Shown here one piece after another: positions 2,998 through 28,027 of a stretch of 29,867 nt of DNA (the first letter of the stretch is position 1; each line of letters opens with the position of its first letter). The notes below the pieces were generated by a model. That model did not search any database and was not told the origin of the DNA. It worked only from the letters and a program-made list of their open reading frames with translations. A program made the translations under genes and the position numbers. This DNA comes from a virus, in the IMG/VR virus record IMGVR_UViG_3300027985_000252, positions 1 through 29,867 of that record; one strand, written 5' to 3'.

Positions 2998-4197
2998 TTA
3001 GTTGCGTGCAGCAACAAGAACTTTCAGCAGACATTCTTCGCGAAGGATGATACCTGCGTAGAAGAAGTTGTAGCTGAAGAAGCCTTTTGTTCCGTAAGGG
3101 TTGATCAGTTCAACTTGAGCCGGAGACTTAGCGTTAAACTTGATTTTGTCAAAACCTTTAAGACCAACAGTTGCGAAAGAACCTTCAGTCGGGAACAGAA
3201 TCGGGAATACGTCGAATTTAGCATCTGTACCTAGAGTACCAGTATACTGCAGACTTCCAACGTAAGTAGCCGGTACATCAGCACCTTCTCCACGATAAAC
3301 CATTGCAGCTTCAGATTCAATGAAACGAATTTCATGCATTGCACCAACTTCACCTTCAGCAAGAGTACCTTGTGAAGCATATTTGTGAACCGGAATGTAA
3401 ACGAATTCTCTTTCGTAACTTGTACCACGTGTCAGTGTTTCAAGGTCAGATTTGACATCAGCACCGATGATTGCGTAGTAAGCAGAAGCAACAGGTTGAG
3501 TACCAATTTTGTTGGCACCGGTAACAATTGTTGAGTTTCTCTTAGCACGGTTACGTACTAGTTTACGAACAGCTTTACGGGCAAGATCGTAAGACATAAC
3601 CCAATCAGCATCTTCAGAACCATCAACAGCAATACCTACACCAATATCAGCGTTAGTTGCAGCAGCACCAGCACCCATTACAGTAGCAGTTGCGAGCATA
3701 TCACGTTGAATAAGGTCTTCGTAACGAGAGTTTGCGAGTTCACCAAGTTCTTCACGGTAACGAACTTGAATATAGTCTTCAGACCAGATATCAACTTCAT
3801 CAGTGTACTCCAGCATTTCACCATAACGGTTGAAATTAGTTTCGTAAGTAACTTTTTGCAGTGTACGTTGGTTAGTAGAACCAGCACCTTCAGTAAGACC
3901 AGCACCTGTACCATCAGTAGCATTAAGCAGTGTATTTACATCTGCCCAAGAACGTGCAGTAAGGAAACCGTATGTACCGAAATCGGCGTCGTTCATTGAA
4001 CGGTCATACATGTGCTCGAAACGAGAAATTTTAAACGCTTTACCGTATTTTGTAGGCATAGATCTACGGTCAGCGAACTGTCCATAAACGTTAACGCGGT
4101 TTGCTGCTTTAACACCCGCACGGTCGTAATAATGTACAATCGTATTAGCACCAGCCGATGCTGTAGTTGTACCATTTCCATAAACTTGAGTAGCCAT
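2998..4197 (-). CDS. Major capsid protein, N4-gp56 family-like
   Basis: 399 aa. The middle region (YETNFNRYGEMLEYTDEV, then DIWSEDYIQVRYREELGEL and a basic ...RKAVRKLVRNRAKRN helix) and the aromatic C-terminus (GFFSYNFFYAGIILREECLL) have the layout of N4-gp56-type HK97-fold capsid proteins. Those proteins end with a hydrophobic strand that places a Trp or basic residue near the last beta strand. The length is normal for the family. The ATG at 4197 follows AAAGGTAAATAG. It sits directly downstream of an acidic scaffold-like gene and upstream of a strong terminator, the classic position of the main coat gene. The identity rests on pattern and context, not on an alignment. Confidence 0.85.
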   Translation of the reverse strand: MATQVYGNGTTTASAGANTIVHYYDRAGVKAANRVNVYGQFADRRSMPTKYGKAFKISRFEHMYDRSMNDADFGTYGFLTARSWADVNTLLNATDGTGAGLTEGAGSTNQRTLQKVTYETNFNRYGEMLEYTDEVDIWSEDYIQVRYREELGELANSRYEDLIQRDMLATATVMGAGAAATNADIGVGIAVDGSEDADWVMSYDLARKAVRKLVRNRAKRNSTIVTGANKIGTQPVASAYYAIIGADVKSDLETLTRGTSYEREFVYIPVHKYASQGTLAEGEVGAMHEIRFIESEAAMVYRGEGADVPATYVGSLQYTGTLGTDAKFDVFPILFPTEGSFATVGLKGFDKIKFNAKSPAQVELINPYGTKGFFSYNFFYAGIILREECLLKVLVAARN

Positions 4198-4239: not shown

Positions 4240-5433
4240 TTATAGACTGTCCTGCAGATTTTTGTACCACTCTTCAAAACTATCATCTGATGCATCTAAG
4301 TAGTCAACTACTTTAGTGCTTGTGGACTTATTTTTTGTTGGAGCAGCTGCCTTACGTTTTGTTGAAGCCTTTTTAGTAGCTACACGTTTTGCGGATTGAG
4401 CTTTTACTTTCTCAATACGATTACGTTCAGCTTGCTCGTCTTCACGTTTAGCCGAAGCTACACGCTGAGCTTCTAGTCGGGCTTCTTCCTGAGCCTGATT
4501 ATCAAAGTACTGTCTAGCAGCTTGTTTGTAGTAGTCTAGGTCACTTTGACTACCACCATCGTAAACTTTAAGTTTTTTAGCGAGAGGAGCGATTGTATCG
4601 TACATTCCAGTCTTAACGTCAATGTGTAGTTGACGAATCAGTTCTGGTTTTTTGATAAACTCTTCTCTACTATTAGAGTCCCACTGTTCTTCAAGAATGT
4701 TGTATGTAGTTGCATACTCTTTATCACTCTTGATTTCATTTACGATATCTTTAATATCAAGTTCGGTATCGTTCCGACCATAATCCTTCGGTACATAATT
4801 AGTATTCTCAGTATCTAAATCGAGAGCATCAGTGCCTGTTCGTTTTATCAACTCAGCAATAGCATTCTTATCACCCTTCAGTACGTCAATCGCTAGGTTA
4901 ATGTCCTCATGAGTCAACTTAGCCTGTTCGATTGCATCAATGGTTTTACGCCAAGGCTTGATAGCCTGCATCTTCTGAGTGTAGTTTGCAGCTTGTCCAA
5001 AAATCTGTCCAAACTTTTCAAAAATTTCATCATCAGAAAATTCGTATTCTTGACCATTAGCGCGATATTTACGCTTCTGTACTGGTTGTTCATCGTCATC
5101 AGATTCATCTTCTTCGTCATCAAGAGTTTCTTCGTCTTCTTCAGAGTCTCCGTCGAGATTGTCTTCATCAGCTTCCGAATCTTCTTCAGATTCATCTTCT
5201 TCGTCAGTTTCAGAACTAGTATCATCATCGGAATCCTCGTCGGGTTGTTCCAAATCATCAACTTCTTCATCTTCTTCAACTTCAACTTCTTCATCATCAT
5301 TAAAGGAGTTGTCGTCTTTTACATCTTCTTCGAAGTCAGACTCAGGAGAAGTATCCTGAGCTTTGGCTTCAGCGAAGGCTTTTTCTAAGTCTTCATCACT
5401 AAGATTAAACAGTTCTTCGTCTGTGTAATTCAT
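4240..5433 (-). CDS. Scaffolding-like protein, very acidic N-terminus
   Basis: 397 aa. Residues about 15-120 are extremely rich in Asp, Glu and Ser. The middle is helical, and the C-terminus (about 320-370) is a Lys/Arg/Ala-rich helix-forming tail (KREDEQAERNRIEKVKAQ..., then Lys-rich repeats). An acidic body with a basic coiled-coil end, encoded immediately before the major capsid gene, is typical of phage scaffolding proteins, which guide procapsid assembly and then leave. Its Shine-Dalgarno (GAGGAG) lies in the last codons of the upstream gene, 3 nt away. The skewed composition creates long spurious frames on the other strand. No protease domain is seen. Confidence 0.75.
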   Translation of the reverse strand: MNYTDEELFNLSDEDLEKAFAEAKAQDTSPESDFEEDVKDDNSFNDDEEVEVEEDEEVDDLEQPDEDSDDDTSSETDEEDESEEDSEADEDNLDGDSEEDEETLDDEEDESDDDEQPVQKRKYRANGQEYEFSDDEIFEKFGQIFGQAANYTQKMQAIKPWRKTIDAIEQAKLTHEDINLAIDVLKGDKNAIAELIKRTGTDALDLDTENTNYVPKDYGRNDTELDIKDIVNEIKSDKEYATTYNILEEQWDSNSREEFIKKPELIRQLHIDVKTGMYDTIAPLAKKLKVYDGGSQSDLDYYKQAARQYFDNQAQEEARLEAQRVASAKREDEQAERNRIEKVKAQSAKRVATKKASTKRKAAAPTKNKSTSTKVVDYLDASDDSFEEWYKNLQDSL

Positions 5434-18824: not shown

Positions 18825-20516
18825 TTAAAAAACAGTACTGCTATTATAGTTATCTTTTTCGTCTTCAAAGCTAGACCATATATCAGAATCTACAGGGAAT
18901 TCATCTCTAAGATCTGGTACATCAGCACTTGGTTTATATGCATCGATTTCACTTAACATACTAATAGTATCAGCTACGTCATCGTGCTTACTTTTAAATC
19001 CTTTTTTAGATACATTACTTAGTTCATCAACTAGTTCATTACCGTAAGGAGTATTTTTTAGTGCTTCAGCAAACCATATTTTTTTAGCTTTAATCATAGG
19101 AAGAATTTGGTTAAATCTAACAAGTTTATCAGCTACTGGTCTGATACCAGGATCACCGCTGTTTTTACTAGAAGCAATATTAAAAAATATATTTCTAGTT
19201 ATCATTTCATTGTTGATCCATCTAATAAAACCACCTTGTTGTCCAGATACTTCTATACCTACTCCTAACGGTTTGTACATACTTACAAGCCTAAATAGGT
19301 CATTAATATTCTGATCCATCAACTGCTGTTTACAAACACCATCGACTAGCATCCAGTCACCATTATTATTATACGCCCATACACTAATAACGCTATAGTC
19401 AGCACCCTTTTTTGCACTTGTTGCAAAGTCTGTAGTTACATAAAAGTTATATGAATCTTTATTTTCAAGTACTTTTCTTCTATCAAACCATACAATATCA
19501 TCGTCTTGTACAAGTCTATCTTCTTCAGACATAATACGTAACATAAGTTCTTGGTTAAAGTTTTCTGGTTTATGTAGATCCATTGCTTCTTCATATTCAG
19601 CTTTTACATACTCATATGTAAAACGGTCTTCCCAACTGCCTCTAAACTCTTCTCTAGTAACAGGGAACTTAACACAAATAGGAAATACACTTACGGTCCA
19701 TGCTCCTGATTCTACTGCTTTATACAAAGGATCATTAGCATTAAAAGGAGTACCGATAAATACCATCTTCTGTCTAGTAGGGTGTAAAGCTTTAGATACA
19801 GCTTTGTAAATCGTATTTTCAATAGTCTCTACAATAGTAGTCGATCTAGCATCTTCATCTGAAATCAAGTCGTCAAGAATTGCAAGTTGTGGACGTTGTC
19901 CTAATTCTTTAGCACCACGAACACCAGTCTTTGCACCATATCCTTTTACAATAAGTCTATGTCCTTTATTGTTCATAAACTCAAGACGAATATCTGTAAA
20001 TTTACGACCACCAGCTACTTGTACTTCATACTCATCTAAACCTACGAATCCTTCGCCTTCAGTACCGACTTTGATACTTTGGTTAGGGATAATGTGTTGA
20101 AGAAATTCAGATTCCTGATAACGGTACTCAACGTTACGGCGTAAGTTTTTTACACCATTCTCAATAGAGTCTGTTACATATAACATAAGGTTTACTTTAC
20201 CAAATCCAGGCATATATCCAAAAGCTGCCATATACAAGATTAAGTATTCGGCAAATAGTGTAGTTTTACCAATACCACGATGACACATGATAGCACATCT
20301 ACGGTCCTGATTAAATACCCGTTCCATCATAACAAGGTGAACAGGAGGGGTTTTATTCTCTTCCTCACCACCATTTACTGCTTTAATAAAGTTAACAAAG
20401 CGTAAAGCTTCTTCTGTTGGCATATAACCAACAAAATCATAATCTACTAGGTTAAGCCATTCTTCTACGGTGTGTTTAACTTTTCCAGGATTAACAATTA
20501 ACTCTTGATCATTCAT
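18825..20516 (-). CDS. terL: Terminase large subunit (packaging ATPase/nuclease)
   Basis: 563 aa, normal for the family. The N-terminal ATPase has a Walker A CHRGIGKTTL at 79-88 and a Walker B-like LAILDDLISDEDA around residue 210. The C-terminal RNase H-like nuclease has TTDFATSAKKGADYSVISVW around 350-370 and KHDDVADTISM near 525, giving the acidic metal ligands. TerL docks on the portal, drives DNA into the head with ATP and cuts the concatemer. The ATG follows the small-subunit stop by 1 nt, with GGAGAAATAAT upstream. Its stop lies 7 nt from the next promoter. Confidence 0.92.
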   Translation of the reverse strand: MNDQELIVNPGKVKHTVEEWLNLVDYDFVGYMPTEEALRFVNFIKAVNGGEEENKTPPVHLVMMERVFNQDRRCAIMCHRGIGKTTLFAEYLILYMAAFGYMPGFGKVNLMLYVTDSIENGVKNLRRNVEYRYQESEFLQHIIPNQSIKVGTEGEGFVGLDEYEVQVAGGRKFTDIRLEFMNNKGHRLIVKGYGAKTGVRGAKELGQRPQLAILDDLISDEDARSTTIVETIENTIYKAVSKALHPTRQKMVFIGTPFNANDPLYKAVESGAWTVSVFPICVKFPVTREEFRGSWEDRFTYEYVKAEYEEAMDLHKPENFNQELMLRIMSEEDRLVQDDDIVWFDRRKVLENKDSYNFYVTTDFATSAKKGADYSVISVWAYNNNGDWMLVDGVCKQQLMDQNINDLFRLVSMYKPLGVGIEVSGQQGGFIRWINNEMITRNIFFNIASSKNSGDPGIRPVADKLVRFNQILPMIKAKKIWFAEALKNTPYGNELVDELSNVSKKGFKSKHDDVADTISMLSEIDAYKPSADVPDLRDEFPVDSDIWSSFEDEKDNYNSSTVF

Positions 20517-23299: not shown

Positions 23300-23370
23300 A
23301 GTCTGTATGACTAACTGTACATAAGTACGGAGTCGGTTCAACAGGAAAACTATATAAAGTCATGCAGACT
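23300..23370 (+). ncRNA. Candidate structured RNA, 71 nt, plus strand
   Basis: A 13-bp outer stem (23300-23312 with 23358-23370) encloses a 6-bp hairpin with an ATAA loop (CTGTAC/GTACGG) and a T-rich remainder. Both stems contain one U-G wobble on the plus strand; on the minus strand these become A-C mismatches, so a plus-strand RNA is favoured. TACAAT (23288-23293) lies seven bases upstream of the first stem base, and TTTCTT follows the stem. The right arm overlaps the HAD stop codon by 2 nt. No standard RNA family fits. Confidence 0.4.
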
Positions 23371-23749
23371 AGTCTTTCTTAAACGGTTTCTTTATATATG
23401 AAACAAATCTATCTTCTTCCCAATTCCACAAAATATGTTTATTCTTGTACCCTTGGTGTAATGCATCCCCAGGTTTTGCATGAGGTTCACCGTCTACAAA
23501 ATCACAACATAACGTAACAGGACTATCATCAATCCATATATCAGCTCTTACAACTGCTGCTTTTGCTTTACCTGCTGTATAGATTATACCATCAAACAAT
23601 GATAAATCTTTTTCTATAGGAGCGTAGGTTTTATCTCTTGCTGTAACTATATATACAGTATGTCCTTTACTTTGAAAAATAGTTCTTAGTATATCAAACT
23701 CATCAGGAAAAGATGAATACGTATCGTCATAGTCTATTGCTAATACCAT
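23369..23749 (-). CDS. HAD-superfamily phosphatase-like protein, 126 aa
   Basis: The start DYDDT (6-10) is the HAD nucleophile motif I (D-x-D-x-T). TAR (36-38) supplies motif II Thr, a Lys near residue 61 (GKAKAAVV) motif III, and WIDDSP (about 72-77) motif IV. It is short, with no clear cap domain, like small phage HAD proteins and the polynucleotide-kinase 3'-phosphatase group. It may remove phosphates from nucleotides or RNA/DNA ends; substrate unknown. AAAGGATATAC precedes the ATG. It lies between the tRNA array and the packaging operon. A role in RNA end repair is conceivable next to tRNAs but unproven. Confidence 0.75.
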   Translation of the reverse strand: MVLAIDYDDTYSSFPDEFDILRTIFQSKGHTVYIVTARDKTYAPIEKDLSLFDGIIYTAGKAKAAVVRADIWIDDSPVTLCCDFVDGEPHAKPGDALHQGYKNKHILWNWEEDRFVSYIKKPFKKD

Positions 23750-23853: not shown

Positions 23854-23940
23854 TGGAGGATAGTACAGGAGTTGAACCTGTGTCCGTGTTACCGGGCCAT
23901 TCCTTAGCAGGGAAGCCTATTACCGCTCTAGCAACTATCC
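23854..23940 (-). tRNA. tRNA-Ser (GCT)
   Basis: Acceptor GGATAGT pairs with ACTATCC, long variable arm, anticodon loop CTGCTAA, encoded CCA. It is class II, as expected for Ser, reading AGC/AGU. The discriminator is U rather than the G usual in enteric tRNA-Ser. It is the last gene of the array in transcription order. Confidence 0.9.
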
Positions 23941-23942
23941 AA

Positions 23943-24033
23943 TGGTAGAGAGCTGAGGTGTCGATCCCCACCCGTATTCCTACGAGCCCACTGCTTTCAA
24001 GGCAGGTCTAGAGGCCGCTCTAGATAACTCTCC
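23943..24033 (-). tRNA. tRNA-Ser (TGA)
   Basis: A class II tRNA with a long variable arm, anticodon loop CTTGAAA, acceptor GGAGAGT/GCTCTCT (with a G-U at 1:72 and U-G at 7:66), encoded CCA. It reads UCN codons, mainly UCA. Confidence 0.9.
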
Positions 24034-24044
24034 ATAAATAATAA

Positions 24045-24122
24045 TGGTCCGAGCATTAGGATTTGAACCTAAAACCCCTTCTGCCCAAGAGAAGTGCGCT
24101 AACCAGATTGCGCTATACTCGG
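24045..24122 (-). tRNA. tRNA-Pro (TGG)
   Basis: Starts with C1, acceptor CCGAGTA/TGCTCGG, D-arm GCGC...GCGC, anticodon loop CTTGGGC, T-loop TTCAAAT, discriminator A, encoded CCA. Confidence 0.9.
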
Positions 24123-24126
24123 ATAA

Positions 24127-24203
24127 TGGTACACGATGTAGGAATCGAACCTACTCCCTCTACCTTGTAAGGGTAGCGAAATCCCATTCTTCTTCAATCG
24201 TGC
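24127..24203 (-). tRNA. tRNA-Val (TAC)
   Basis: Acceptor GCACGAT/ATCGTGT, anticodon stem CTACC/GGTAG with loop CTTACAA, T-loop TTCGATT, discriminator A and encoded CCA. Reads GUA and probably GUN. Confidence 0.9.
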
Positions 24204-24204
24204 A

Positions 24205-24280
24205 TGGAGCCCCCAGCAGGATTCAAACCTGCGACGTAATGGGTAGAAGCCATTTGCTCTATTCACTGAGCTATGAGGGC
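24205..24280 (-). tRNA. tRNA-Arg (TCT)
   Basis: Acceptor GCCCTCA/TGGGGGC, anticodon stem AATGG/CCATT with loop CTTCTAC, T-loop TTTGAAT, encoded CCA. Reads AGA/AGG, which are common Arg codons in AT-rich phages. Discriminator U. Confidence 0.9.
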
Positions 24281-24283
24281 GTA

Positions 24284-24355
24284 TGGAAGCCCTATGAGGA
24301 ATCAAACCTCATCATCGAAGTTCGTAGCTTCAAGTCCAGATTCACTGGTAAGGCC
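24284..24355 (-). tRNA. tRNA-Arg (ACG)-like gene overlapping a protein gene
   Basis: Acceptor GGCCTTA/TAGGGCT (one G-U at 1:72, one U-G at 5:68), anticodon loop CTACGAA (the same as enteric Arg-ACG) on a stem TGAAG/CTTCG, T-stem TGAGG/CCTCA, encoded CCA. The D-arm region is about four bases short: CCAG/CTGG is the only D-stem, leaving no bases at positions 8-9. The 63-aa gene 24302-24493 ends inside its T-loop, so one strand serves both. It may be a functional truncated tRNA or a decaying one. Confidence 0.6.
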
Positions 24356-24493
24356 ATCAAGAATACAATCGTAAACTCTGTTACGGTGTTTATCAAATTT
24401 TCTTAGTTCAACTAAGTATGCAGGTGCTGTCCAATTATCAGCATATTTTTTGCTTATCTTCTTAGAAGTTTTGCGTACACGTTTAAAGTTCAT
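24302..24493 (-). CDS. Small basic protein whose 3' end is a tRNA gene, 63 aa
   Basis: The N-terminus is very basic (MNFKRVRKTSKKISKKYADN). The middle has YLVELRKFDKHRNRVYDCIL, and the last ~17 residues (TSESGLEATNFDDEV) are encoded by the Arg-ACG-like tRNA. The ATG has AAAAGGATTACA upstream, the same ribosome binding site context as the GIY-YIG gene at 28027. Codons outside the tRNA look normal, and the stop lies in the T-loop of the tRNA. No known family; the basic N-terminus suggests RNA or DNA binding. It sits in the middle of the tRNA operon and would be translated only from uncut transcript. Confidence 0.6.
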   Translation of the reverse strand: MNFKRVRKTSKKISKKYADNWTAPAYLVELRKFDKHRNRVYDCILDGLTSESGLEATNFDDEV

Positions 24494-24513
24494 TGTAATC
24501 CTTTTAAACTTAT

Positions 24514-24587
24514 TGGTGCGGGATTAGGGACTCGAACCCTAGACTTTAGTTTGGAAGACTAATATGTTACCACTACACTAATCCAGC
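24514..24587 (-). tRNA. tRNA-Gly (TCC)
   Basis: Anticodon stem TTAGT/ACTAA with loop CTTCCAA, T-loop TTCGAGT, encoded CCA, discriminator A. Acceptor GCTGGAT/ATCCCGC has one T-C mismatch at position 3:70, unusual for a Gly tRNA. Confidence 0.85.
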
Positions 24588-24588
24588 A

Positions 24589-24664
24589 TGGAAGCCCTAG
24601 CAAGACTCTCACTCGCAATCTCCGGGGTTGCAATCCGGTGCTTTATATATTTAGCTATAGGGCC
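24589..24664 (-). tRNA. tRNA-Cys (GCA)
   Basis: Acceptor GGCCCTA/TAGGGCT, anticodon loop TTGCAAC, discriminator U73 (a Cys identity base), encoded CCA. The T-arm is divergent: loop TGAGAGT instead of TTCRANY, stem GCGAG/CTTGC, and there is an A-C mismatch at the base of the anticodon stem. A partly degenerate gene is possible. Confidence 0.75.
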
Positions 24665-24669
24665 ATAAT

Positions 24670-24753
24670 TGGTAGCGACGGAGAGATTTGAACTCTCAAT
24701 TCCTAAGACGCTGGTTCCTAAGACCAGTGCGTATACCGTTCCGCCACGTCGCC
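24670..24753 (-). tRNA. tRNA-Leu (TAG)
   Basis: A class II tRNA: acceptor GGCGACG/CGTCGCT, anticodon stem CTGGT/ACCAG with loop CTTAGGA, extra arm GCGTCTTAGGAAT, T-loop TTCAAAT, discriminator A (required for LeuRS), encoded CCA. Confidence 0.9.
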
Positions 24754-24758
24754 ATAAA

Positions 24759-24834
24759 TGGTGCCGAATGTAGGACTTGAACCTACACCCTTTAGTTTAC
24801 AAAACTACTGCTCCGCCAATTGAGCTAATCCGGC
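24759..24834 (-). tRNA. tRNA-Thr (TGT)
   Basis: Acceptor GCCGGAT/ATTCGGC, D-arm GCTC...GAGC, anticodon loop TTTGTAA, T-loop TTCAAGT, discriminator A and encoded CCA. Outermost anticodon stem pair is G-A. Confidence 0.85.
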
Positions 24835-24836
24835 AT

Positions 24837-24910
24837 TGGTTCCGGGTACTGGAATTGAACCAGTCTAGGCAGCTTATGAGACTGCTGAGTTGCCACTACT
24901 CTAACCCGAA
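24837..24910 (-). tRNA. tRNA with CAT anticodon (Met, or Ile2)
   Basis: Acceptor TTCGGGT/ACCCGGA, anticodon stem GCAGT/GCTGC with loop CTCATAA, T-loop TTCAATT, encoded CCA. The paired 1:72 and the lack of three G-C pairs in the anticodon stem argue against an initiator. Elongator Met is most likely, but Ile2 (lysidine-modified) cannot be excluded from sequence. Confidence 0.85.
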
Positions 24911-24915
24911 TTAAA

Positions 24916-25001
24916 TGGTGGGTCGTATAGGATTCGAACCTATTCGGCATTAAACCACGGATTTACAATCCGCTGCGACTCTCCCACTTCGCAGACAACC
25001 C
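24916..25001 (-). tRNA. tRNA-Tyr (GTA)
   Basis: A class II tRNA with long variable arm, acceptor GGGTTGT/ACGACCC, anticodon stem CGGAT/ATCCG-type with loop TTGTAAA, T-loop TTCGAAT, discriminator A, encoded CCA. The long variable arm with GTA is the bacterial Tyr pattern. Confidence 0.9.
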
Positions 25002-25003
25002 AT

Positions 25004-25083
25004 TGGTGGAGAACCTGGGCATCGAACCCAGCTGTTTTTCTTCAGTGCAAGTGAAGTGACCACCCCTAGCAGTCCCGTTCCCC
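25004..25083 (-). tRNA. tRNA-Ala (TGC)
   Basis: Acceptor GGGGAAC/GTTCTCC contains the G3-U70 pair that defines Ala for AlaRS. Anticodon stem CTTCA/TGAAG with loop CTTGCAC, T-loop TTCGATG, discriminator A, encoded CCA. The D-arm is long for an Ala tRNA. Confidence 0.9.
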
Positions 25084-25091
25084 ATTATAAT

Positions 25092-25176
25092 TGGTGCATC
25101 CACTTGGAATCGAACCAAGTCTGCCATAAAGCTCCTGATTAAAAGTCAGGCCTCATCCCATTCGAGTCATAGATGC
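25092..25176 (-). tRNA. tRNA-Lys (TTT), with a long variable region
   Basis: Acceptor GCATCTA/TGGATGC, anticodon stem CCTGA/TCAGG with loop CTTTTAA, T-loop TTCGATT, discriminator A, encoded CCA. The variable region is about 14 nt, much longer than the usual 5 nt of Lys tRNAs, and closer to class II. The anticodon assigns Lys, but LysRS recognition could be altered. Confidence 0.8.
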
Positions 25177-25177
25177 A

Positions 25178-25252
25178 TGGCACTACTGACGGATCCTGAC
25201 ACCGCAACCTTCTGTTCGACAGACAGATGCTCTTCCTTTGAGCTACAGTAGT
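25178..25252 (-). tRNA. tRNA-Asp (GTC)
   Basis: Acceptor ACTACTG/CAGTAGT, D-arm GCTC...GAGC, anticodon stem TCTGT/ACAGA with loop CTGTCGA, discriminator G73 (Asp identity), encoded CCA. T-loop is somewhat unusual (AGGATCC region). Confidence 0.85.
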
Positions 25253-25263
25253 ATAGTAAAATA

Positions 25264-25338
25264 TGGTCCTGGGTACAAGAATCGAACTTGTATCAATCGC
25301 TTATCAAGCGACTACTCTAACCGTTGAGCTAACCCAGA
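25264..25338 (-). tRNA. tRNA-Ile (GAT)
   Basis: Acceptor TCTGGGT/ACCCAGG, D-arm GCTC...GAGT, anticodon stem GTCGC/GCGAT with loop TTGATAA, T-loop TTCGATT, discriminator A, encoded CCA. Directly abuts the 3' end of the Asn tRNA. Confidence 0.9.
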
Positions 25339-25416
25339 TGGCTCGGGTAACAGGAATCGAACCTGTCTCTATGCTGGTTAACAGCCAGCCGCATTCACCT
25401 TGATTGCTATACCCAA
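25339..25416 (-). tRNA. tRNA-Asn (GTT)
   Basis: Acceptor TTGGGTA/TACCCGA, anticodon stem GCTGG/CCAGC with loop CTGTTAA, T-loop TTCGATT, discriminator G73 and encoded CCA. No spacer to the Ile tRNA. Confidence 0.9.
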
Positions 25417-25426
25417 ATATAATTAA

Positions 25427-25503
25427 TGGCAAGATTGTCTGGAATCGAACCAGAGTACTATGGCTTTGGAGGCCAAGCGATTTCCATTTATCTTTACAAC
25501 CTT
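25427..25503 (-). tRNA. tRNA-Trp (CCA)
   Basis: Acceptor AAGGTTG/CAATCTT, anticodon stem TTGGC/GCCAT with loop CTCCAAA (the standard bacterial Trp loop), T-loop TTCGATT, discriminator G73, encoded CCA. D-arm is A-rich. Confidence 0.88.
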
Positions 25504-25508
25504 ATTTA

Positions 25509-25586
25509 TGGTAGGTAGATGAGGAATCGAACCTCAACCTCTTGGGCTTCAACCAAGCGAACAATCACCAGATATTCGATCTACCT
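25509..25586 (-). tRNA. tRNA-Phe (GAA)
   Basis: Acceptor AGGTAGA/TCTACCT, anticodon stem CTTGG/CCAAG with loop TTGAAGC, T-loop TTCGATT, discriminator A73, encoded CCA. Confidence 0.88.
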
Positions 25587-25596
25587 ATATTTATAT

Positions 25597-25672
25597 TGGC
25601 ACTTCGTAAGGGAGTTGAACCCTTCTCTACAGGTTGAAAACCTGTTGACCTTAACCGATAGTCGAACGAAGC
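25597..25672 (-). tRNA. tRNA-Glu (TTC)
   Basis: Acceptor GCTTCGT/ACGAAGT, anticodon stem ACAGG/CCTGT with loop TTTTCAA, T-loop TTCAACT, discriminator G73 (Glu identity), encoded CCA. Confidence 0.9.
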
Positions 25673-25678
25673 ATTAAT

Positions 25679-25752
25679 TGGTGTGGCTACTGAGAATTGA
25701 ACTCAGATGCGCTGATTCACAGTCAGCTGCGTTACCTTTACGCCATAGCCAC
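25679..25752 (-). tRNA. tRNA-His (GTG), A73 discriminator
   Basis: Acceptor GTGGCTA/TAGCCAC, anticodon stem CTGA/TCAG with loop CTGTGAA, T-loop TTCAATT, encoded CCA. The template has a G just 5' of G1, but position 73 is A, not the C that pairs with G-1 in enteric His tRNAs. A73 is typical of alphaproteobacterial tRNA-His, a weak host hint. Confidence 0.85.
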
Positions 25753-25762
25753 CATATGTACA

Positions 25763-25836
25763 TGGCTGAGACGGCGGGGCTCGAACCCACAATAACAGAG
25801 TCAAAGTCTGTGGTGTTGCCATTACACTACGTCTCG
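25763..25836 (-). tRNA. tRNA-Gln (TTG)
   Basis: Anticodon stem CAGA/TCTG with loop CTTTGAC, T-stem GTGGG/CCCGC with loop TTCGAGC, discriminator G73, encoded CCA. The 1:72 position is C-A (unpaired), compatible with GlnRS's preference for a weak first pair. First tRNA of the array in transcription order. Confidence 0.85.
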
Positions 25837-25900: not shown

Positions 25901-25924
25901 GAGATCCTTGAAAATAAAGATCTC
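25901..25924 (-). other. Second hairpin in the tRNA leader
   Basis: GAGATC/GATCTC stem (6 bp), then one mismatch and two more A-T pairs around a 6-nt loop. It is next to the longer hairpin and starts at the stop codon of the 42-aa frame. Confidence 0.45.
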
Positions 25925-26052
25925 TAGAGAGTATTCCCCTCAATAGCCATATGATTCCATTGGCTAAAGAGTACGGAATTTAGGGCATACGAATCCGCAG
26001 TACTAAAACAGCGATCAACAATTGTATGTCTTGGCGTCTTATATGCTTTCAT
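25924..26052 (-). CDS. Possible 42-aa leader protein of the tRNA operon
   Basis: Short frame beginning MKAYKTPRHTIVDRCFSTAD with two in-frame ATGs (26055 and 26052). The second has AAAGGA six bases upstream. The start MKAY is also found in a small gene at 29378 (MKAYQQLAFIAN), a slight hint of relatedness. No family. It follows a probable promoter by about 40 nt and precedes two hairpins and the tRNAs. It may be a real small protein or a chance frame. Confidence 0.4.
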   Translation of the reverse strand: MKAYKTPRHTIVDRCFSTADSYALNSVLFSQWNHMAIEGNTL

Positions 26053-26092
26053 CATATTTCCTTTTAGAGTATATCTTTTAGTAAGATAAGTA

Positions 26093-27586: not shown

Positions 27587-28027
27587 TCAAAATAACACTT
27601 CTCCTAAAGTATCTTCTTCTTTATAAGCATCCAGGTTAAACTCTAAACCTTTTAAGCTACCTAAACCATTTTCTAGCAAATAATCATACACATCTACAGC
27701 AGCTTCATACGGTATTACAAAGCATTCTGAACTACCATCAAAAGTTATCTTAGGTTCAAACCTATAATCTCTAAAGAACTCGTGTAGTTCAGCTTCATAC
27801 TTGAATACATCATTATCAATAGCTCTATCACGTTTGATATGGCAGATAAATGTTCTTCGGTACTTCATAAAGTAATCTCTCATAATCTGCATCATCCTAT
27901 CTACGCTATCTTTACCGGAACTCTTACCGAACTTTACAATATGCAATCCACTCTCTAATCGTATCAACAGTAAATATAATCTATCAACTTGTTTCTTCGT
28001 TACGCAACTATCTAATTTAAACTTCAT
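27587..28027 (-). CDS. GIY-YIG/T5orf172-like nuclease-domain protein, 146 aa
   Basis: Residues 17-35 (LYLLLIRLESGLHIVKFGKS) give the GIY-YIG-like first strand and K-x-G turn (K32, G34, K35). R44 (DRMMQIMRDY) and the E78/E80 helix (KYEAELHEFFRDYRF) follow, then FDGSSECFVI. This order and spacing match the T5orf172/MUG113 subset of GIY-YIG domains. Phage members may be nicking, repair or homing nucleases. AAAAGGATTACA precedes the ATG. A -10-like TATACT (28056-28051) lies upstream. Confidence 0.65.
   Translation of the reverse strand: MKFKLDSCVTKKQVDRLYLLLIRLESGLHIVKFGKSSGKDSVDRMMQIMRDYFMKYRRTFICHIKRDRAIDNDVFKYEAELHEFFRDYRFEPKITFDGSSECFVIPYEAAVDVYDYLLENGLGSLKGLEFNLDAYKEEDTLGEVLF

Follow-up and report, generated by a model that had tools for sequence, protein, structure and literature searches.

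What would a phage do with a transfer RNA (tRNA) gene for every standard amino acid? The question is raised by the IMG/VR virus record IMGVR_UViG_3300027985_000252, a 29,867-base fragment of a virus contig with a GC content of 36.7%, which was analyzed over its whole length and is called the window below. Adjoined by phage structural genes, positions 23854-25836 (1983 nt) of the window hold 22 tRNA genes, all on the minus strand, which between them serve all 20 amino acids. The explanation that we favor, and hold to be fairly probable, is that these are backup tRNAs, charged by the host and co-transcribed as one block in a short-tailed (N4-like) phage, with tRNA bodies that have either relaxed or been driven to change by host defenses.

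The tRNA genes and their arrangement

An initial annotation of this DNA had listed 22 minus-strand tRNA genes with encoded CCA, and both the genes and the list of anticodons were recovered here with ARAGORN, Rfam, the tRNA-Sec model of Rfam and hand-drawn cloverleaves. ARAGORN at its default threshold called 18 of the 22, and Rfam placed 19 above its cut-off, gaining Cys and Asp over ARAGORN and missing Ala. The two sets of calls combine to 20 genes, with no amino acid left out, and the claim of at least one tRNA for each therefore survives the check by prediction tools. The two genes recovered by hand, Ser(TGA) and Arg(ACG), are second isoacceptors. For Ser(TGA), the tRNA-Sec model gives 43.9 bits against a cut-off of 47, ARAGORN at a relaxed threshold returns identical bounds (23943-24033) with the anticodon misread, and a counterpart is present in the 80-kb viral contig L001 (IMGVR_UViG_3300001765_000035), a relative described below. 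Arg(ACG) is called by no tool. Drawn by hand as a cloverleaf, it has seven pairs in the acceptor stem and five each in the anticodon and T stems, its anticodon loop is the canonical CU-ACG-AA, and its CCA is encoded; its D arm, however, is reduced. Every tRNA gene of the array encodes its CCA. Chance is excluded as the source of the array, since default ARAGORN made no calls in 200 dinucleotide shuffles of it. The genes of the array are as follows.

23854..23940, minus strand, tRNA-Ser(GCT), class II, T73 (ARAGORN; Rfam 50.3 bits)
23943..24033, minus strand, tRNA-Ser(TGA), class II, A73 (tRNA-Sec model 43.9 bits, structure, L001 counterpart)
24045..24122, minus strand, tRNA-Pro(TGG) (ARAGORN; Rfam 62.3 bits)
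24127..24203, minus strand, tRNA-Val(TAC) (ARAGORN; Rfam 42.8 bits)
24205..24280, minus strand, tRNA-Arg(TCT) (ARAGORN; Rfam 63.5 bits)
24284..24355, minus strand, tRNA-Arg(ACG), reduced D arm (manual cloverleaf only)
24302..24493, minus strand, 63-amino-acid open reading frame (ORF), Shine-Dalgarno-like AAGGA upstream (ORF list)
24514..24587, minus strand, tRNA-Gly(TCC) (ARAGORN; Rfam 66.4 bits)
24589..24664, minus strand, tRNA-Cys(GCA) (Rfam 51.9 bits over 24592-24664; ARAGORN at relaxed threshold)
24670..24753, minus strand, tRNA-Leu(TAG), class II (ARAGORN; Rfam 58.2 bits)
24759..24834, minus strand, tRNA-Thr(TGT) (ARAGORN; Rfam 65.6 bits)
24837..24910, minus strand, tRNA-Met(CAT), probably not Ile2 (ARAGORN; Rfam 52.5 bits)
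24916..25001, minus strand, tRNA-Tyr(GTA), class II (ARAGORN; Rfam 41.6 bits)
25004..25083, minus strand, tRNA-Ala(TGC), odd D arm (ARAGORN; structure; relatives in L109/L139/L154)
25092..25176, minus strand, tRNA-Lys(TTT), class II, A73 (ARAGORN; Rfam 48.9 bits; structure)
25178..25252, minus strand, tRNA-Asp(GTC), degenerate T loop (Rfam 49.3 bits, structure; not ARAGORN)
25264..25338, minus strand, tRNA-Ile(GAT) (ARAGORN; Rfam 63.2 bits)
25339..25416, minus strand, tRNA-Asn(GTT) (ARAGORN; Rfam 47.4 bits)
25427..25503, minus strand, tRNA-Trp(CCA) (ARAGORN; Rfam 31.9 bits)
25509..25586, minus strand, tRNA-Phe(GAA) (ARAGORN; Rfam 50.3 bits)
25597..25672, minus strand, tRNA-Glu(TTC) (ARAGORN; Rfam 54.1 bits)
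25679..25752, minus strand, tRNA-His(GTG), A73 (ARAGORN; Rfam 67.4 bits)
25763..25836, minus strand, tRNA-Gln(TTG), C1.A72 mismatch, G73 (ARAGORN; Rfam 57.2 bits)

The close spacing described initially (0-20 nt, with one gene insertion) is real: the spacers measure 0-11 nt, save for one 158-nt gap that holds most of the 63-amino-acid ORF. Because the genes lie on one strand with such short spacers, they are likely to be transcribed together. Host enzymes would then cut the transcript into tRNAs whose CCA is already encoded, and host synthetases would charge them, so that every amino acid would be backed up whenever host tRNAs run short, be it from degradation, from stress or from a defense that cuts tRNAs. 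It is in this sense that we infer expression, charging and a benefit under defense.

Sigma-70 promoters and terminators were considered as signals of the array and rejected: promoter matches around it stand at the level of shuffles (8 versus 8.7), and of the five terminator-like matches (1.8 in shuffles) four fall inside tRNA stems of the other strand. Homologue searches with the 63-amino-acid ORF returned no relatives. Its 3' 54 nt overlap tRNA-Arg(ACG), and RNase P cutting of this tRNA would take off the stop codon of the ORF. Short ORFs precede the arrays of both the window (25924-26055, minus strand, 43 amino acids) and L001 (about 4801-4899, about 32 amino acids); they have no evident similarity to each other and are possible leaders.

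Amino acid and codon coverage

Every amino acid has a tRNA in the set, but not every codon can be read. Nothing in the window decodes Leu UUA and UUG, Ile AUA or Arg CGG, and these codons are used 22.7, 6.6, 12.7 and 1.1 times per thousand, respectively. Codon coverage is 95.7% if U34 reads all four bases (superwobble) and 89.5% with the usual U34 modification, leaving 4.3% or 10.5% uncovered, the latter including codons such as GGU. Host tRNA is needed by 33 of the 34 window genes. Thus, of the initial proposal that the phage keeps translating while host tRNAs are depleted, the supply of all amino acids stands, and self-sufficient decoding does not. The genome is incomplete, and further tRNAs may therefore exist outside the 29.9-kb fragment; as far as the window goes, the unread codons argue that the phage tRNAs would supplement host decoding and not replace it.

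A tRNA set could also serve to correct a mismatch between the codons of an AT-rich phage and those of its host, which we regard as improbable here. The phage is AT-rich indeed, its codons favor A or T endings, and most of the wobble-type anticodons start with T; codon compensation has also been argued for Xanthomonas phage XacN1 by its authors (PMC5852040). However, targeted compensation does not predict a set that gives all 20 amino acids about one tRNA apiece, nor would it leave frequent AT-rich codons such as UUA and AUA uncovered. The sole gene that needs no host tRNA, that of the major head protein (2998-4197), avoids UUA, UUG, AUA and CGG (P ~6e-8 versus genome frequencies) and mostly AGA, unlike other genes. 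This avoidance was entertained as a sign of translation matched to the array and discarded: AGA is avoided although the array reads it, which is what ordinary codon bias linked to expression level predicts, and this counts against codon compensation as well.

tRNA bodies, identity elements and host defenses

The anticodon and T arms are intact in 19 of the 22 tRNAs, and the other three are partly degenerate. The Asp T loop, GTCAGGA, has lost T54, A58 and the 53-61 pair; in Cys, the T loop reads TGAGAGT and the GG pair that would usually dock there is missing from the D loop; and Arg(ACG) has the reduced D arm noted above. Could the array simply be decaying, or have accumulated by accident with little function? 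Besides these three tRNAs, the ORF overlapping Arg(ACG) and the speed at which the content has changed with respect to L001 would fit. Against this stand the 19 intact genes, the CCA encoded in 22 of 22, the identity elements that are kept and an array position in common with L001, and we consider decay quite improbable. In tRNA-Ala, U8 is absent and G3:U70 kept; because other phages have its odd D arm and variable loop too, these mark a shared phage type rather than decay. This type, common to L109, L139, L154 and the window (25004-25083), has the D arm GGGACTGCTAG-GGTGGTC and a variable loop ending in AACAG.

The initial annotation relied on the CAT tRNA for Met and feared that it might be Ile2. 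The CAT tRNA is devoid of both E. coli isoleucyl-tRNA synthetase signatures (U12:A23 and C29:G41), whereas Ile(GAT) of the array has both. Ile2 was rejected on this ground, and E. coli identity rules applied to the structure point to Met. The initiator features are mixed: A11:U24, a weak T1-A72 and no GGG/CCC anticodon stem.

By the textbook rule, a long variable arm belongs to Leu, Ser and Tyr tRNAs, the Ser and Tyr synthetases need it, and bacterial tRNA-Lys is class I. Phage tRNAs break this rule both ways, with Ser and Tyr keeping the long arm. In tRNA-rich viral stretches, the long arm is present in 165 of 167 Ser, 68 of 69 Tyr and 128 of 225 Leu tRNAs; the short (class I) arm is found in the other 97 sampled phage Leu tRNAs (43%), including that of L001 at 5313-5388. 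In the other direction, some phage Lys, Asn, Cys, Thr and Ile(UAU) tRNAs carry a long arm and Val and Asp none, the totals for Lys and Ile being too high because of the way in which the loci were located. Base 73 nevertheless follows the amino acid of the anticodon: Leu tRNAs have A73 in 128 of 128 long and 95 of 97 short arms, and long-armed phage tRNAs have U73 in eight of eight Cys and G73 in 14 of 16 Asn cases. Identity elements are thus kept while tRNA bodies drift (Ala G3:U70, base 73, the long arm of Ser and Tyr). That the needs of host synthetases are kept and the rest varies argues that phage tRNAs are charged and used.

Phage tRNA-Ile(TAT) (e.g., in L085, L099 and L126; loci L357-L475) has a variable arm of 22-25 nt with a covarying stem and the near-invariant loop CAGATTA, found in eight of nine long-armed cases of an unselected sample, the ninth having CGGATTA. 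A scan for this long-arm pattern gave at least 120 viral stretches, and the constancy of the loop hints at a specific binding partner.

The Lys(TTT) gene of the window is one of the tRNAs that have gained an arm: its variable arm is 14 nt long and includes a stem of three pairs, base 73 is A, and the anticodon loop is normal. The class II tRNA-Lys pattern has at least 120 matches in viral contigs, of which ARAGORN confirms 77 of the 80 checked. With a pattern permitting both arm lengths, 113 of the 120 viral stretches listed were new loci, all class I, and seven were class II. Among 84,980 bacterial and archaeal species, about 15 of 50 matches were genuine, mostly inside phage-like arrays. A chance match or a bacterial trait was discarded on this comparison (77/80 viral versus ~15/50 bacterial and archaeal). 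Over 103 distinct class II phage tRNA-Lys sequences, the variable-arm stem has a z of ~12 relative to shuffles, and the published isolates RcXuper and phiCbK carry such a tRNA too. A literature search returned no description of a phage class II tRNA-Lys, with subscription journals thinly covered and the absence of a report not established. Near-identical class II tRNA-Lys(TTT) genes with few tRNAs nearby also occur in three contigs of Frankiales metagenome-assembled genomes (L316, L319 and L320) and may be chromosomal there.

Such a tRNA-Lys might be misacylated with Tyr, Leu or Ser and miscode AAA/AAG, in the manner of nematode nev-tRNAs. Long-armed nev-tRNAs are reported to be charged with Leu in vitro (PMC4300185). 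The body of the window Lys is closest to phage tRNA-Tyr (71% identity). However, base 73 of class II tRNAs tracks the anticodon (Asn G73, Cys U73, Lys A73/U73, not the G73 of Ser), and lysyl-tRNA synthetase recognizes its tRNA mainly through the anticodon; misacylation therefore seems very unlikely.

Several defenses are known to act on tRNAs. Retron-Eco7 and Septu cut the variable loop of tRNA-Tyr, and T5 tRNA-Tyr resists by means of that loop (PMC13096335); PrrC cuts tRNA-Lys, and with phage-encoded Tyr and Lys tRNAs phages survive retron-Eco7 and PrrC (PMC11555353); and AriB cuts Lys, Thr and Asn tRNAs, the T5 versions of which rescue (PMC12409363). KpP_HS106, the source of the rescuing tRNA-Tyr in PMC11555353, was placed here in Schitoviridae. 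The dense tRNA block of the window is like those of T5 and SP15 (PMC11555353, PMC12409363), and it is in T5-like regions that rescue by Tyr and Lys tRNAs, and by Thr and Asn in T5, has been shown; a long tRNA-Asn (83 nt) occurs in the T5-like phage S147. The anticodon-nuclease defense named in the initial annotation is in keeping with this work on T5 and SP15.

Evasion of anticodon or variable-loop nucleases may thus be the main selective force on the array, altered bodies such as class II Lys included. This is a sharper form of the explanation that we favor, both can hold, and we put it forward tentatively. In addition to the rescue experiments, class II Lys and Asn tRNAs recur in many phages. 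In contrast, positions 36-41 of the window Lys(UUU) read UAAUCA, the AriB motif UAAUC|A unchanged, with no U39 or A41 substitution; departures from it, both at position 39, are confined to Thr (UAAAC|U) and Asn (UAACC|A). Changes in the anticodon stem give T5 tRNA-Lys its AriB resistance, and the window Lys is without these but has the long variable arm. As for RNA-repair genes, neither a T4-type RNA ligase nor RtcB turned up in the window or L001, the PF09511 profile having matched no control either. Moreover, neutral drift explains the loss of the arm in 43% of sampled phage Leu tRNAs equally well. Defense evasion is plausible on the sequence, not demonstrated by it. We would also propose, as a rather doubtful extension, that the breaks of the variable-arm rule in both directions reflect re-bodied tRNAs, the window Lys among them, that are charged through the anticodon and were selected to escape host tRNA-cutting defenses; the pattern is there in the sequences, and charging and selection are what we would add to it.

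Relatives, neighboring genes and meaning

The minus-strand genes of the window include those of the major head protein, a tape-measure-type protein, the portal, the terminase large subunit and a DNA-repair exonuclease, two of which are placed as follows.

2998..4197, minus strand, major head protein (PHROG 1357)
18825..20516, minus strand, terminase large subunit, N4 gp68-like (PHROG 38 E=3e-94, tblastn)

The terminase is ~55% identical to those of Schitoviridae (N4-like) phages of Klebsiella, Pectobacterium and Vibrio (tblastn) and 81% identical in amino acids to that of L001. With its gp68-type terminase, portal and head proteins, the phage is assigned as Schitoviridae-like (N4-like). No ORF of the size of the virion RNA polymerase is among those of the 29.9-kb window, a genome fragment. 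A terminase search of 84,980 bacterial and archaeal genomes, meant to point to the host, gave no relative, and neither the exonuclease nor the array-adjoining gene 23369-23749, used as baits for further array-bearing phages, retrieved any carrying tRNAs. At 27587-28027 the window encodes a MUG113/T5orf172-like protein (Pfam E=8e-5), possibly with a GIY-YIG-type nuclease domain.

Transfer RNAs are absent from eight of the 17 relatives sampled (Schitoviridae and N4-like phages close to them) and number one to six in the others (Rfam), and a published table gives 2-9 tRNAs in four phages of Schitoviridae (PMC13015707). The array is the largest found in Schitoviridae among the members sampled. Complete sets are already known in other phages, and the initial view that they are uncommon even among tRNA-rich phages did not hold up: all 20 amino acids are covered in 10 of 67 viral contig stretches with at least 18 tRNAs, a sample biased by being picked on tRNA patterns, and in XacN1 (PMC5852040). 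The compactness is another matter, since the tightest of those ten sets takes up 3.8 kb, versus 1.9-2.0 kb in the window. XacN1 is, moreover, a jumbo myovirus with 26 canonical tRNAs per 66-kb terminal repeat plus translation genes, unlike the 22 in 2 kb here.

The array of L001, the nearest relative, is syntenic with that of the window, both being upstream of the exonuclease and terminase, and has 12 tRNAs (ARAGORN, relaxed threshold), with a few more elsewhere in L001. Unlike in the window, tRNAs for Ala, Cys, Gly, Lys, Pro and Val were not found in L001 at the default threshold, and the variable arm of its Leu(TAG) is short whereas the Leu(TAG) of the window is class II. Only Thr, Glu and Leu look clearly orthologous (identities 0.83, 0.80 and 0.75). 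So few orthologues at a shared locus suggest that the place of the array is kept while its content turns over quickly.

The phiCbK-like Caulobacter phages also have a long tRNA-Lys (88 and 91 nt), on which the searched passages of their genome paper make no remark (PMC3556154); they differ in having genomes of 205-280 kb and tRNAs for 13-16 amino acids. Mycobacterial tRNA array units, found in phages and plasmids too, resemble the window as densely packed tRNA genes on a mobile or phage genome (PMC5966550); their hosts and replicons are other ones, and the likeness is of description, not sequence.

Several points weigh against backup by host-charged tRNAs: the codon gaps rule out self-sufficiency unless tRNAs lie outside the fragment, there are signs of partial degeneration in Asp, Cys and Arg(ACG), and the Lys anticodon arm is without a known escape change. 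The function of phage tRNAs has been without agreement for decades, and recent work ties some of them to defense evasion. A complete, compact set in a family of ~75-80 kb phages usually poor in tRNAs would make a small and tractable test case. The class II tRNA-Lys and the wider departures from the variable-arm rule offer a direct experimental handle, since charging, decoding and nuclease resistance can be compared for one anticodon arm on two natural bodies.

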